From Terriglobales bacterium (GTDB lineage Bacteria; Acidobacteriota; Terriglobia; Terriglobales; Acidobacteriaceae): 64,000 bases of DNA. The position numbers and the translations under genes are program-made. Shown piece by piece: positions 47,474 through 51,760 of the stretch. How positions within the stretch are numbered: position 1 is the first letter of the stretch; each line of letters opens with the position of its first letter. The notes under the pieces are model-generated. The model saw only the letters and a list, made by a program, of their open reading frames with translations, was not told where the DNA came from and searched no databases. The stretch is taken from the NCBI GenBank assembly GCA_025934735.1, contig JAICWP010000022.1, positions 1-64,000 of the forward strand, read 5' to 3'.

Positions 47474-47502
47474 TTGACCGAATGGGCTGCGTTGGATATA
47501 GT
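47474..47502 (+). promoter_or_regulatory. Sigma70-like promoter of the lysC-hom-thrC operon
   Basis: TTGACC (47474-47479) and TATAGT (47497-47502) are separated by exactly 17 bases. Transcription would start near 47509, about 40 bases upstream of the leader peptide. The match to TTGACA/TATAAT is 5 of 6 in each box. Confidence 0.7.
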
Positions 47503-47548
47503 GTGGTACGCATTTATGAGATCCCTCATCCAGAGCACAGGTCGCACA

Positions 47549-47608
47549 ATGACCATGACAACCATGGCCATGCGAATTACTGCGCTTCTGGAGGAGGGCG
47601 CCGGGTAA
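47549..47608 (+). CDS. thrL: Threonine/methionine-rich leader peptide (attenuator)
   Basis: A 19-codon ORF reading MTMTTMAMRITALLEEGAG and then TAA. Ten of the first twelve residues are Met, Thr, Ile or Ala: 5 Met, 4 Thr, 1 Ile. AGG lies seven bases before the ATG. It sits between a good promoter and a strong terminator upstream of the genes for Thr and Met precursors, the same layout as the E. coli thrL region. Ribosome stalling at the Thr/Met codons would release the antiterminator strand that overlaps codons 12-17. It is too short for gene-finding programs. Translation is inferred, not shown. On the other strand only an overlong extension of the Sel1 ORF overlaps it. Confidence 0.78.
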   Translation: MTMTTMAMRITALLEEGAG

Positions 47609-47651
47609 GCTAAAAAGCACTTCTAGATACCCAAACCCACCGCCAGAAGCG
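47583..47651 (+). promoter_or_regulatory. Antiterminator pairing region of the lysC-hom-thrC attenuator
   Basis: CGCTTCTGGAGGAGGG (47583-47598, within the leader-peptide coding region) can pair with CCCACCGCCAGAAGCG (47636-47651) at 14 of 16 positions, including a perfect 9-bp block. The partner strand contains 12 of the 14 bases of the terminator's left arm, so the two structures exclude each other. A ribosome stalled at the Thr/Met/Ile codons leaves 47583-47598 free; one that reaches the stop at 47606 covers it. Confidence 0.75.
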
Positions 47652-47675
47652 AATCTGGCGGTGGGTTTTTCTTTT
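47634..47675 (+). terminator. Attenuator terminator upstream of lysC
   Basis: AACCCACCGCCAGA (47634-47647) pairs perfectly with TCTGGCGGTGGGTT (47654-47667) around an AGCGAA loop, with a T-rich tract TTTTTCTTTT. It ends 26 bp before the lysC ATG, after the leader ORF, a placement that suits regulated premature termination and not a gene end. Confidence 0.9.
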
Positions 47676-47701
47676 GGGATCGAAAGGGAAGGACAGGAAC
47701 G

Positions 47702-49120
47702 ATGTCGCAGCCAGCAGGCAACAAACACGTGGAAGGCCGCGGGTGGGTGGTGCTGAAGTTCGGGGGAACCTCGGTGGAAAACGCGGCCGCCCTGCGCCGT
47801 GTCGCCGGTTTGGTGGCGCAGCAGGAAGGCGCGGTGGTGGTGGTGAGCGCGCTGGCCGGCGTGACAGATCAACTCCTGGCAGCCGGAGAAGATGCGGCGC
47901 GAGGACGGCTGACGGCAGCCCAGCAGAGCCTGCTGGTCATCTGTGATCGGCATAGCGTGATGGCGCGCGAGCTGTTGCCGGAAGCTTCTGCGGGTCCGTT
48001 CTTGACTTACCTGCAAAAAGAGTTCGAGGGATTGGCCAAACTGCTGCACGGCGTGGCCGCCTTGGGGGAGTTCAGCCCGCGAACCGCAGACCGGCTGGTG
48101 GGCTCCGGAGAAGTCGTTTCCAGCCGCTTGCTGGCGGAAGGCGTGTTCGCCGCCGGCCGAAACGCCGCCTGGGTGGATGCTCGGCAATGTCTCGTCACCG
48201 ACGATGCCTTCGGCCAAGCCAAGCCTCTGCGCGAAGCGACGAATAGCCGGCTGCGTGAACTGGTATTGCCGCTGCTGGAGAGCGGCCGGGTGCCGGTGCT
48301 GGGCGGGTTCATCGCGGCCACCGCGGATGGCACGCCTACCACTTTGGGCCGGGGAGGGTCGGATTTCTCCGCTGCCCTGGTCGCCGCCGGGCTGGGCGCA
48401 AGCCGTCTGGAAATTTGGACGGACGTGGACGGCATCATGACCGCTGACCCGCGCCTGTGTCCGGATGCGCGCCTGATTCCCAGTATCAGCTTTGCGGAAG
48501 CGGCAGAACTGGCGCAGGCGGGGGCCAAGGTCCTTCATCCCGCCACCCTGCTGCCGGCGACGGAAAAGAACATTCCCGTGTACGTGCGCAACTCGCGGCG
48601 GCCGCGAAGCCGGGGGACGCGCATTGTGGCGGAAGGCGCGGAGCCGGTGACGGTGCGAGCCATTACTTCCAAGCGAGGGGTAGTTATTGTGGAAGCACGG
48701 CTCCGCCGTCAGGCCGACGCCCATACTCTGGGCCAAATCCTCAAAGCGTGCGAGGGCTATACCCTCGACCTATGCTCGGTGTCGCAGCACAGCCTGGTCC
48801 TGCTGGCAGACTCCAAGCTGGCGGTTCGCGAATTGGAACGCACCTTACGCGACGTGGCCGAAGTCCAGGGCGAGAACCATAAAGCGATCGTGCGCGTATT
48901 CGGTGACCGCATCGGGCGCCACACCAGCGTCGTAGCCCAGATCTTCCACGCGCTGGCGGGAATCGAAGTCCGGCTGGCCGCGCCGGGTGAAGGTGAGCGC
49001 AACTTGACGTTGGTAGTAGATGAGGATCAGGCGGCCGAATCGGTACAGCGCTTGCACAACCTGTTTTTCCCGAGCAGCGACCAGCAGGCGAACGAAGTTT
49101 CCCCGGCAGGTGCACAATGA
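47702..49120 (+). CDS. lysC: Aspartate kinase
   Basis: 472 residues. The kinase domain starts VLKFGGTSVENAAALRRVAG and includes GVTDQLLAAGEDA and FIAATADGTPTTLGRGGSDFSAALVAAGLGA, then WTDVDGIMTADPRL. Two ACT domains fill the C-terminus (about 320-465; for example VTVRAITSKRGVVIVEARL and HTSVVAQIFHALAG). It phosphorylates aspartate, the first step to lysine, threonine and methionine. It ends in ATGA overlapping hom. It is led by a promoter, leader peptide and attenuator. RBS GAAAGGGAAGGACAGG precedes the ATG at 47702. Confidence 0.96.
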   Translation: MSQPAGNKHVEGRGWVVLKFGGTSVENAAALRRVAGLVAQQEGAVVVVSALAGVTDQLLAAGEDAARGRLTAAQQSLLVICDRHSVMARELLPEASAGPFLTYLQKEFEGLAKLLHGVAALGEFSPRTADRLVGSGEVVSSRLLAEGVFAAGRNAAWVDARQCLVTDDAFGQAKPLREATNSRLRELVLPLLESGRVPVLGGFIAATADGTPTTLGRGGSDFSAALVAAGLGASRLEIWTDVDGIMTADPRLCPDARLIPSISFAEAAELAQAGAKVLHPATLLPATEKNIPVYVRNSRRPRSRGTRIVAEGAEPVTVRAITSKRGVVIVEARLRRQADAHTLGQILKACEGYTLDLCSVSQHSLVLLADSKLAVRELERTLRDVAEVQGENHKAIVRVFGDRIGRHTSVVAQIFHALAGIEVRLAAPGEGERNLTLVVDEDQAAESVQRLHNLFFPSSDQQANEVSPAGAQ

Positions 49121-50427
49121 ACGCCAGTCCAGCTTTTGAATTTTCCCGATCCTCCCTGCAGCCGGTTCCAGCCCAGCGCGCGTGCCGCATCGCGCTTCTC
49201 GGATTCGGCACCGTCGGCCGCTCGGTCGCCACCATTCTGCAGGGCGGCTCCTTTCCGCAGCTGCGGCTGGACATGATTTATAACCGGCGGGTGGATCGCA
49301 AGCGGGTGCCCTGGGTTTCTCCGCAGGTTCGCTGGACCGACGATCTGGAAGAAGTGCTGGCTTCCGATGCCGATGTAGTCCTGGAGCTGGCTGGCGGCCT
49401 GGAGCCGGCGTATTCCTGGGTGAAGCGGGCGCTGCTGCTGGGCAAATCGGTGGTGACCGCCAACAAGAAGTTGATTGCGGCGCATGGCCCGGAGCTGCTG
49501 GACCTGGCGCGGCAGCAGGGCTGCCGGCTGGAGTTTGGCGCCGCCGTGGCCGGAGGCGTACCGGTGTTGTGCGGGGTAAGCCCGGGCCTGAGCGGGGATC
49601 GCCTGCTGAAGCTGTGCGGCATTCTCAACGGAACTTGCAACTACATCCTGCACGCCATGGAGAGCCGCGGCGTGACGCTGGATGCGGCCTTGCGGGAAGC
49701 GCAGCAGCGCGGCTACGCCGAGGCCGACCCCAGCGATGATGTGGACGGCCTGGACGCGCGCGCCAAGCTGGCCATCCTGGTGCGCACCGGATTCCACTTG
49801 CAGGCAGACCCGCAGCAGATTGCCACGCAAAGCATCTGGCCGGTACAGCCGGCTGATTTCCGCTATGCGCGGGAACTGGGCTGCACCATCCGTCAGGTGG
49901 CGCGGGCGGAACTGAAAGCAGGCACGCTGCTGGCGGAGGTCGCCCCCACGGTGGTCAGCGCCGGCTCGCCTCTGGGCTCCGCGCGCAACAATCAAAACGT
50001 GCTGGTGACCACCGGCAAGTACGGCGGGGAAACGGTGTTCGCGGGTGCCGGAGCTGGTGGCGCCCCCACCGCGGTGGCCGTGGTTTCTGACCTGCTGGCG
50101 GTAGCGGAATCGCGGGCAGCGGCGAATTGCGGGCCGGCGCTGGTGGCCGTACCGGTCAGCAACGATTTCCGTTGCCGCCACTACGTTCGGGTTACGCCGG
50201 CGCAGACCACGGATGCGGTTGCGGCGCTGCGGCGAACTTTGACTTCCGGCGGCATCAGCCTGCGCGGCCTGCTTCACCATCCCGACCCGCACGACCGCCG
50301 GCCCAGCCTGGCGCTGGTGGTGGAGGAGTGCTCCACCCACGCGCTGGAAAAAGCTTTGACCCAGGTCCAGGAGGCGGGACTGCTGGCCGAGCCCGCCGTA
50401 CGAATGCCCATGGTCACCACTTCTTAA
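49117..50427 (+). CDS. hom: Homoserine dehydrogenase
   Basis: 436 residues. NAD(P)-binding GFGTVGRSVATILQGG at the N-terminus; catalytic signature FGAAVAGGVPVLCGVSPGLSGDRL and LCGILNGTCNYILHAMES (the GTxNYxL region), ending with an ACT-like domain (RCRHYVRVTPAQTTDAVAAL). It reduces aspartate semialdehyde to homoserine, the branch to threonine and methionine. The start overlaps the lysC stop by 4 bp (ATGA) and thrC follows, so the three are one operon. Confidence 0.96.
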   Translation: MNASPAFEFSRSSLQPVPAQRACRIALLGFGTVGRSVATILQGGSFPQLRLDMIYNRRVDRKRVPWVSPQVRWTDDLEEVLASDADVVLELAGGLEPAYSWVKRALLLGKSVVTANKKLIAAHGPELLDLARQQGCRLEFGAAVAGGVPVLCGVSPGLSGDRLLKLCGILNGTCNYILHAMESRGVTLDAALREAQQRGYAEADPSDDVDGLDARAKLAILVRTGFHLQADPQQIATQSIWPVQPADFRYARELGCTIRQVARAELKAGTLLAEVAPTVVSAGSPLGSARNNQNVLVTTGKYGGETVFAGAGAGGAPTAVAVVSDLLAVAESRAAANCGPALVAVPVSNDFRCRHYVRVTPAQTTDAVAALRRTLTSGGISLRGLLHHPDPHDRRPSLALVVEECSTHALEKALTQVQEAGLLAEPAVRMPMVTTS

Positions 50428-50512
50428 TGTGAGGCGCGCCCCAGCACCCGACCCCATAACTTGCCGGTTCGACCGGCGGACGAGAATCCCAAGTGGTTGT
50501 AATGAGGAGCCA

Positions 50513-51760
50513 ATGACAGAGCGATACGAACTGCAGTGCCGGGAATGCCGAACAAGCGTCGGCAACCGGCCCTCGTCAGTCTGCGAAGAGTGTTTTTCTC
50601 CCCTGGAAGTGACCTATGACTATGATGACATCCGAACATGCCTGACCCGGGAAGCGATTGCGCAGCGGGCTCCGGGCATTTGGCGGTACCGGGAGCTGCT
50701 GCCGGTCGCCGATGAGTATGAGGCCACACTGCCCATCGGCTTCACCCCGCTGGTTCCCGCCCCGCAACTGGCCCGCCACTTCCGCTCCCGCCGGCTCTTC
50801 CTCAAGAACGATTGCTTCTGCTTCCCTACCCTGAGCTTTAAAGATCGCGTGGTGGCCATGGCCATGGCCCAGGCGCGCCGCTTCGGATTCGAAGTAGTGG
50901 GCTGTGCCTCCACCGGCAACCTGGCCAACGCGGTGGCGGCGCAAGCTGCCCGGGCCGGCTTGCGCGCCTGCGTGCTGATTCCCGCCGATCTGGAATCGGC
51001 CAAGGTCATCAATACCCAGGTCTATGGCGCGCGACTGGTGCGCGTCGCGGGCAACTACGACCAGGTAAACCGGCTGTGCTCGCAAATCGCCGACGCTTAC
51101 CACTGGGGCTTCGTGAACGTGAACCTGCGAGCTTACTACGCGGAGGGGTCGAAGACAGTTGGATACGAGATCGCCGAACAACTGGGCTGGCGGCTGCCGG
51201 ACAACGTGGTGGTGCCCATGGCCGGCGGTTCGCTGATCACCAAGATCAAGAAAGCGTTTGACGAGCTGGTGAAGCTCGGCCTGGTGGAGCCCAAGCCGGT
51301 AAAGATTTTTGGCGCGCAAGCCACCGGCTGCTCCCCCATCAGCACCGCGGTAAAGGGCGGCCAAACCGATATCGCTCCGCAAAAGCCGAGCACCGTGGCG
51401 CGTTCGCTGGCCATTGGCAATCCCGCCGACGGGCACTATGCCATCAAGGCCATCACCGGCAGCGGCGGCTGGGCGGAAGATGTTTCCGACAAGGAAGTGG
51501 TTGATGCCATGCAACTGCTGGCTGCCACCGAAGGCGTGTTCGCGGAAACCGCCGGCGGCGTTACCGTGGGCGTGGCCAGGAAGCTTTTCGCCCAGGGCCG
51601 CATTTCCCCCGAGGAGACGACCGTGCTATGCATCACCGGCAACGGGCTAAAAACCGTGGAAGCGCTGCAGGGGCGGCTCGAGCTGCCGGAGCCGATTCCG
51701 GCCAAGCTGGCCGCCTTTCAGGAACATATTGCCGATGAGGCCGAAGCGGTAGCTGTGTAA
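50513..51760 (+). CDS. thrC: Threonine synthase with N-terminal zinc ribbon
   Basis: 415 residues. A zinc ribbon at the N-terminus has C9-RE-C12 and C24-EE-C27. The PLP-dependent fold follows, with the Schiff-base lysine K110 in FPTLSFKDRVVAMAMAQAR, phosphate-binding ASTGNLANAVAAQAARAG and VVPMAGGSLITKIKKAF. It converts phosphohomoserine to threonine. The ATG at 50513 follows GAGGAGCC. It lies in the operon behind hom (85-bp gap). The ubiquitin-like sulfur carrier gene follows 77 bp on. No thrB is present in the window, so homoserine kinase lies elsewhere. Confidence 0.96.
   Translation: MTERYELQCRECRTSVGNRPSSVCEECFSPLEVTYDYDDIRTCLTREAIAQRAPGIWRYRELLPVADEYEATLPIGFTPLVPAPQLARHFRSRRLFLKNDCFCFPTLSFKDRVVAMAMAQARRFGFEVVGCASTGNLANAVAAQAARAGLRACVLIPADLESAKVINTQVYGARLVRVAGNYDQVNRLCSQIADAYHWGFVNVNLRAYYAEGSKTVGYEIAEQLGWRLPDNVVVPMAGGSLITKIKKAFDELVKLGLVEPKPVKIFGAQATGCSPISTAVKGGQTDIAPQKPSTVARSLAIGNPADGHYAIKAITGSGGWAEDVSDKEVVDAMQLLAATEGVFAETAGGVTVGVARKLFAQGRISPEETTVLCITGNGLKTVEALQGRLELPEPIPAKLAAFQEHIADEAEAVAV

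Follow-up and report, generated by a model that had tools for sequence, protein, structure and literature searches.

In the thr operon of Escherichia coli, a run of Thr and Ile codons in a short leader ORF is combined with a terminator before the aspartate kinase gene and an alternative antiterminator. In the trp attenuator, the control codons lie between strands 1 and 2, and the stop codon lies in or near strand 2. Cys-rich leaderless upstream ORFs (uORFs) of mycobacteria were reportedly described by Canestrari in 2020. Leader-peptide attenuation was known from Proteobacteria and Actinobacteria when a new case was reported in Firmicutes (PMC2965389), and for the Cys-rich leaderless uORFs of mycobacteria translational control of the downstream gene has been discussed (PMC4633059). 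The Thr leader is among the Rfam leaders in PMC3766115, whose main text, in the portion available, does not contain "Acidobacteria"; the leader-gene distance statistics in PMC4833913 include Acidobacteria, and the available part of that paper makes no mention of "threonine" or "lysC". PMC13236596, also available in part, is a further paper cited. In the literature searched, partly as incomplete texts and with subscription journals thinly covered, no description of an amino-acid leader peptide of Acidobacteria was found, and an earlier prediction may exist.

The window analysed here is the whole stretch of 64,000 nucleotides from a Terriglobales bacterium. An earlier note had proposed a ribosome-mediated thr attenuator in this acidobacterium, and the proposal is strongly supported by conservation in relatives, by the codon match and by the spacing. 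With a probability of about 90%, we read the region upstream of lysC-hom-thrC as a ribosome-mediated transcription attenuator that would sense charged Thr-tRNA and probably Ile-tRNA. The element is real as a sequence element, and its parts and the genes behind it are as follows.

47474 to 47502, plus strand: sigma70-like promoter, TTGACC-17-TATAGT, with 10 of 12 consensus matches.
47516 to 47608, plus strand: leader ORF of 30 codons read from the sequence, MRSLIQSTGRTMTMTTMAMRITALLEEGAG; its ATG is invariant in ten aligned leaders.
About 47523 to 47540, plus strand: strand 1, inside the leader ORF, pairing with strand 2 in the leader fold (16 pairs).
47549 to 47608, plus strand: 19-codon ORF of the earlier note, probably internal to the leader, given the conserved ATG further upstream.
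47552 to 47563, plus strand: main candidate control codons, Thr ACC 47552, ACA 47558 and ACC 47561, from masked folding and from Thr codon spacing in 35 leaders.
47583 to 47598, plus strand: strand 2, the 5' strand of the antiterminator, overlapping the end of the leader ORF, from folding and duplex tests.
47633 to 47668, plus strand: intrinsic terminator hairpin (3:4) of 15 pairs with a 6-nt loop and a U-rich tail at 47669 to 47676.
47636 to 47651, plus strand: strand 3, the 3' strand of the antiterminator and also the 5' arm of the terminator, with ACCCACCGCCAGAAG invariant in ten leaders.
47702 to 49120, plus strand: lysC, aspartate kinase (TIGR00657, above its cut-off).
49117 to 50427, plus strand: hom, homoserine dehydrogenase (NF004976, above cut-off), overlapping lysC by 4 nt.
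50429 to 51760, plus strand: thrC, threonine synthase (TIGR00260, above cut-off), with an in-frame ATG at 50513.

The names of lysC, hom and thrC are those of NCBIfam profile matches. The likeness to E. coli thrL claimed in the earlier note holds for the design: a Thr/Ile codon run, a terminator before an aspartate kinase gene and an alternative antiterminator are common to both. It does not extend to the sequence: the Rfam family Thr_leader (RF00506) did not reach its gathering score anywhere in the window and was absent from the matches at E up to 5 in the leader region. E. coli has thrABC, while here a monofunctional lysC is followed by hom and thrC. The gene upstream of the leader encodes a Sel1-repeat protein on the minus strand, divergent from lysC; the terminator at 47633 to 47668 is therefore not the end of its transcript and is located between lysC and lysC's own promoter. 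That promoter had been announced in the earlier note and is present with its 10 matches, though one such pattern was found against 0.5 expected in shuffles, which is weak alone and near the chance level. The leader ORF stops at TAA 47606-47608, and 93 nt, including the U-tailed terminator, separate this stop from the lysC start. The sequence right after the hairpin is TTCTTTTG.

The 19-codon leader described before does exist as an ORF. As the leader start, 47549 is superseded by the in-frame ATG at 47516-47518, which is invariant across ten aligned lysC leaders, one of them the window's, and for this reason translation of the leader probably starts at 47516. The resulting peptide contains 6 Thr, 2 Ile and 4 internal Met among 30 codons.

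The stability of the leader RNA was compared with that of shuffled sequences. The leader at 47509-47701 was more stable than the shuffles (z -6.15, 0 of 200 as stable), and the antiterminator was the minimum-energy fold of 47583-47655 (z -4.4, 0 of 200 as stable). This fold reproduces the pairing of 47583-47598 with 47636-47651 given in the earlier note, with 14 pairs of which the first 9 are contiguous. The terminator hairpin with its U-tract was recovered as well, with 15 pairs and not the 14 bp reported, so that both alternative structures were found by folding. Strand 1, which had been missed, pairs with strand 2 in the ribosome-free fold. It completes the classic four-strand layout, in which 1:2, 2:3 and 3:4 are mutually exclusive. 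This logic is shared with the trp, his, leu, ilv and phe attenuators of Proteobacteria and Actinobacteria, while the phylum and the sequence family are different here.

To describe the effect of a stalled ribosome, masked folding was carried out with an assumed footprint that reaches back 18 nt from the first base of the A-site codon and forward 13 nt. With the transcript ending at 47655, a stall at Thr 47552, 47558 or 47561 left 14 antiterminator pairs, a stall at Thr 47579 left 5, and a ribosome at the stop codon left none. The last Ile-Thr codons do end one base before strand 2 as noted earlier, but with only 5 pairs left at Thr 47579 they are probably not the main sensor under this model. 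At equilibrium, the full leader preferred the terminator, with 15 pairs in every masked case. Antitermination must therefore be kinetic, chosen while strand 4 is still unmade; in trp attenuation the choice is likewise made before the synthesis of strand 4. In the ribosome-free case, the antiterminator had a short-lived advantage, at transcript ends 47650-47655. When a ribosome sat at Thr 47561 the antiterminator was already gone at 47660, and when the ribosome sat at Thr 47552 it was kept. The modelled outcome thus appears to depend on both the transcript end and the stall site.

From the sequence we infer transcription, translation, stalling, termination and a physiological response of the following kind. 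RNA polymerase would start a few nucleotides before the 30-codon leader ORF, with the ribosome trailing the polymerase. When Thr is scarce, the ribosome would stall at the Thr codons around 47552-47563 and cover strand 1, leaving strand 2 free to pair with strand 3 while strand 4 has yet to be transcribed; the terminator would then not form, and the operon would be read. When Thr is ample, the ribosome would reach the stop at 47606 and cover strand 2, 3:4 would form, and transcription would terminate before lysC. If no ribosome is present, 1:2 and 3:4 would form, which should lead to termination as well.

When 110 lysC-bearing records were scanned with a strict pattern, the leader turned up in 11, and these 11 gave ten distinct leaders. 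The named records that bear the leader are Acidobacteria, several of them labelled gp1, Acidobacteriaceae or Terriglobia. This comparison of lysC upstream regions, proposed in the earlier note, showed that the leader, strand 2 and the terminator are kept together in other genomes. Besides the window, hom adjoins lysC in two of nine distinct leader-bearing loci (L003 and L031), as read from ten records of which L002 and L032 are one contig and four reach only about 1.5 kb beyond lysC. Either the lysC-hom operon is not conserved in the leader-bearing relatives, or their records are too short past lysC. RNAalifold on the alignment A3 gave only 8 terminator pairs, probably because strand 4 slides between relatives.

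At E <= 0.01, the covariance model R1, built from the ten lysC leaders, matched 61 of the 150 family genomes, where the rough E-values predict about 1.5; 8 of the 61 had supplied training sequences, and the remaining 89 of the 150 genomes had no R1 match at this threshold. In an even draw of the phylum, a shallower first look, R1 matched 10 of 396 genomes. The second model, R2, which covers strand 2 to the terminator, matched 111 of 299 genomes of the class at E <= 0.001, across five families. In the window's own genome, R2 has two members, the lysC leader and a Cys leader, and it also matches the lysC hairpin on its opposite strand. The Cys leader, MPSRSHSRRMCPCACCCALVSSGLEGMLI (L129, G000:C1:36525-36676), stands with a terminator before a sulfite/nitrite reductase-like gene.

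The maintenance of the 2:3 pairing was evaluated across the loci. On average, the pairing of strand 2 with its own strand 3 beat 71% of its pairings with the strand 3 of other loci (92 loci, Wilcoxon 1e-10, a value that is too small since the loci are phylogenetically related). The duplex shuffle test (p <= 0.05) was passed by 28 of the 35 Thr leaders, but by only 22 of the 49 sulfur leaders and 4 of the 6 BCAA leaders. The loss of this pairing in relatives had been named beforehand as a point that would speak against the attenuator, and the Thr leaders show it maintained. With strand 2 positions taken from the duplex search itself, 112 of 189 Thr codons in the 35 Thr leaders lay 10-39 nt before strand 2, and the leader stops lay 12-31 nt after the strand 2 start in 34 of the 35, the remaining one being at 65. 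Two leaders, L131 and L133, end in a different frame across the conserved RNA.

Then, the genes downstream of 96 R1 loci were read, with the partial reverse-strand match G023:C142 + left out; removal of one duplicate gave 95 distinct loci. Labels came from BLAST clusters, one representative per cluster being checked against profile libraries. The next gene was lysC in 33 cases, a nitrite/sulfite reductase-like gene in 33, a family 2A encapsulin shell in 6, siroheme synthase or SUMT in 5, cysteine synthase in 4, hom in 3, ilvB in 3 and ilvD in 2. Single loci preceded ilvC, a class IV aminotransferase, a rhodanese, a solute-binding protein, a PAPS-reductase-type gene and proC, and one locus had no downstream ORF. 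The leader was chosen objectively as the ATG nearest model position 13, a rule by which 3 of the 95 loci had no leader. At least 3 Thr were present in 34 of 35 lysC/hom leaders and at least 4 Cys in 42 of 49 sulfur-gene leaders among the 95 distinct loci (Mann-Whitney 2e-11 for Thr and 4e-15 for Cys, again too small for related loci). As R1 was trained on Thr leaders, part of the Thr enrichment at lysC is circular, which does not apply to the Cys and BCAA cases. The six BCAA leaders averaged 39% Val+Leu+Ile. The enrichment was specific to the reading frame: in the sulfur leaders Cys made up 22%, compared with 7% and 4% in the alternative frames, and in the Thr leaders Thr made up 19%, compared with 2% and 3%.

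A second set consisted of 61 R2 loci chosen by hand among the matches listed, none of them in the training set and 6 from the window's family; it was labelled by BLAST against the first set. Forty preceded sulfur genes, of which 36 had at least 3 Cys, 2 had fewer and 2 had no ORF. All 6 before aspartate-kinase-like genes had at least 4 Thr. The one before ilvB carried a Val run and was counted as neither Cys nor Thr, and the 14 unlabelled loci comprised 12 with at least 3 Cys, 1 of neither type and 1 without an ORF. The leaders of the 96 R1 loci have a chassis in common, and their codon runs correspond to the pathway of the gene that follows. This chassis common to Thr, Cys and BCAA leaders is a further difference from E. 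coli thrL.

Several other loci in these sets were recorded. In genomes of family f7, very Thr-rich leaders, such as MSLSTKRITTPSSTSTMSISITTTSITTTSTTFASGAWRN in L272, precede genes that are 37-39% identical to first-set lysC (L264, L272, L273 and similar loci). Cys-rich leaders precede similar membrane proteins at L260, L261 and L262; Pfam places the L262 protein with the TauE/SafE sulfite exporters. The chassis also occurs, with Cys-containing leaders, before family 2A encapsulin shells (L121, L123, L124, L127, L128 and L204, also L284 and L286), a label that rests on NF041162 (E 5e-152) for L124 and on BLAST for the other loci. This suggests cysteine-controlled encapsulin 2A nanocompartments. 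The encapsulin SrpI is upregulated under sulfur starvation, according to the available part of PMC8049743. At L203, a short ORF, MASTYPRYALPLPPVPGAA, and a terminator precede proC; it was at first taken as a false match and was kept as a weak candidate because the ORF is proline-rich. At L263, in another family of the class, a Phe-rich frame and a terminator precede a DAHP synthase gene, with no ATG start found. In the window's own genome, a DAHP synthase gene (G000:C38:203032-203799, minus strand) is preceded by the promoter TTGACA-17-TATATT, the leader MHTARFSWRRFYRYYLESSGAGEPCARAA and a strong terminator as judged by eye (L291); with its aromatic codons and its own terminator, this is likely an aromatic amino-acid attenuator. 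By eye, no leader was seen at the second lysC (G000:C13) and no clear attenuator upstream of ilvD, ilvB, leuA and trpE of this genome, and hisG was not matched there with TIGR00070.

The start of the leaders was also compared. Among 149 leaders, a -10-like TANNNT box ended 6-11 nt before the leader ATG in 11-22 cases per position compared to 1.9 elsewhere, and Shine-Dalgarno 4-mers were not enriched (6 versus 15 in the control stretch). Given this box position and the lack of Shine-Dalgarno enrichment, the leader ORFs are probably near-leaderless as a group, unlike E. coli thrL. In the window, the gap from the -10 box to the ATG is 13 nt, just outside the family peak. The acidobacterial Cys leaders resemble the mycobacterial leaderless uORFs in having Cys-codon runs before sulfur genes, there for example cysA2 (PMC4633059, as far as available), and differ from them in preceding a terminator-like hairpin and in sharing their chassis with Thr and BCAA leaders.

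Thr is the clear candidate for the amino acid that the leader would sense, and Ile sensing is likely on residue shares, Ile making up 9.2% of Thr-class and 2.2% of sulfur-class leaders. The earlier note had proposed sensing of Thr plus Met. An attenuator that responds to Met as well as Thr, or to a general slowing of translation, through the four internal Met codons is unlikely: three internal Met also occur in the relative L139, and the lysC and hom products also feed Met synthesis, whereas Met shows no class difference like that of Ile (5.4% in Thr-class and 4.2% in sulfur-class leaders), so that the Met part is not supported family-wide. The peptide motif RI[TS] was present in 23 of 35 Thr, 2 of 6 BCAA and none of 49 sulfur-gene leaders. 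E. coli thrL also begins K-R-I-S, a likeness that may reflect either convergence or old kinship.

Three further explanations were weighed. With terminator-like sites at 3 against 1.8 expected by chance and the promoter count near expectation, the locus might hold no more than a common terminator, or an inverted repeat that arose by chance, beside a short ORF that is likewise accidental. This is highly improbable and is largely refuted by the joint conservation of leader, strand 2 and terminator in other genomes; moreover, the codon content follows the downstream pathway, and the divergent upstream gene has no transcript ended here. Many amino-acid operons use riboswitches or T-box elements with the same terminator logic, and such a small-molecule or tRNA sensor could control the terminator with the ORF being incidental. 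We consider this the least probable of all, as no Rfam family reached its gathering score within the window, and the residues encoded by the ORF vary with the pathway while the chassis stays the same. A search of the leader region against Rfam at E up to 5 gave 8 matches far below gathering scores, the best being NrrF on the minus strand (E 0.039), and none was a riboswitch, T-box or amino-acid leader. Finally, coupling, reinitiation or occlusion might let the leader ORF expose or hide the start of lysC, and the probably near-leaderless leader ORFs do resemble the mycobacterial leaderless uORFs (PMC4633059, in its available part). Translational control of this type is very unlikely here, because the U-tailed terminator, which takes part in the alternative pairings, lies within the 93 nt from the stop of the leader to the start of lysC. 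The attenuator reading is based on the sequence parts, their conservation, the codon-pathway match, the maintained 2:3 pairing and the spacing; the locus combines an ORF with pathway codons, a terminator before the first gene, a maintained antiterminator and codons and stop in the corresponding places.

The mechanism is known in kind, and the lineage-wide retuned family is the more interesting result. Neither Rfam nor the literature searched, part of which was available only as partial texts, yielded a lineage-wide, retuned and probably near-leaderless attenuator family of this kind. The lysC element appears to be one member of an attenuator family with differing sensor codons that occurs widely in the class, which is Terriglobia judging by the named relatives. 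We lean towards a broader proposal, held with less confidence than the reading of the lysC element itself: Terriglobia may possess a modular, lineage-specific chassis (the strand motif GTGTCTTCTGG plus the terminator ACCCACCGCCAGAAG...CTGGCGGTGGGTTTTT) that was copied or retuned by swapping codon runs in a near-leaderless ORF, that would sense Thr/Ile, Cys, Val/Leu/Ile and perhaps aromatics and Pro, and that would also place the family 2A encapsulin, a sulfur nanocompartment, under the control of cysteine supply.

In this class of soil bacteria, attenuation appears to be a frequent means of controlling Thr and sulfur metabolism, located in stretches overlooked by gene finders. A chassis that is kept while its codon runs are exchanged offers a direct route to studying how attenuators are copied and change their specificity. 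The probably near-leaderless leader ORFs raise the question of how ribosomes load fast enough behind RNA polymerase without a Shine-Dalgarno site, and the codon runs predict control signals for further genes, such as that of encapsulin 2A.
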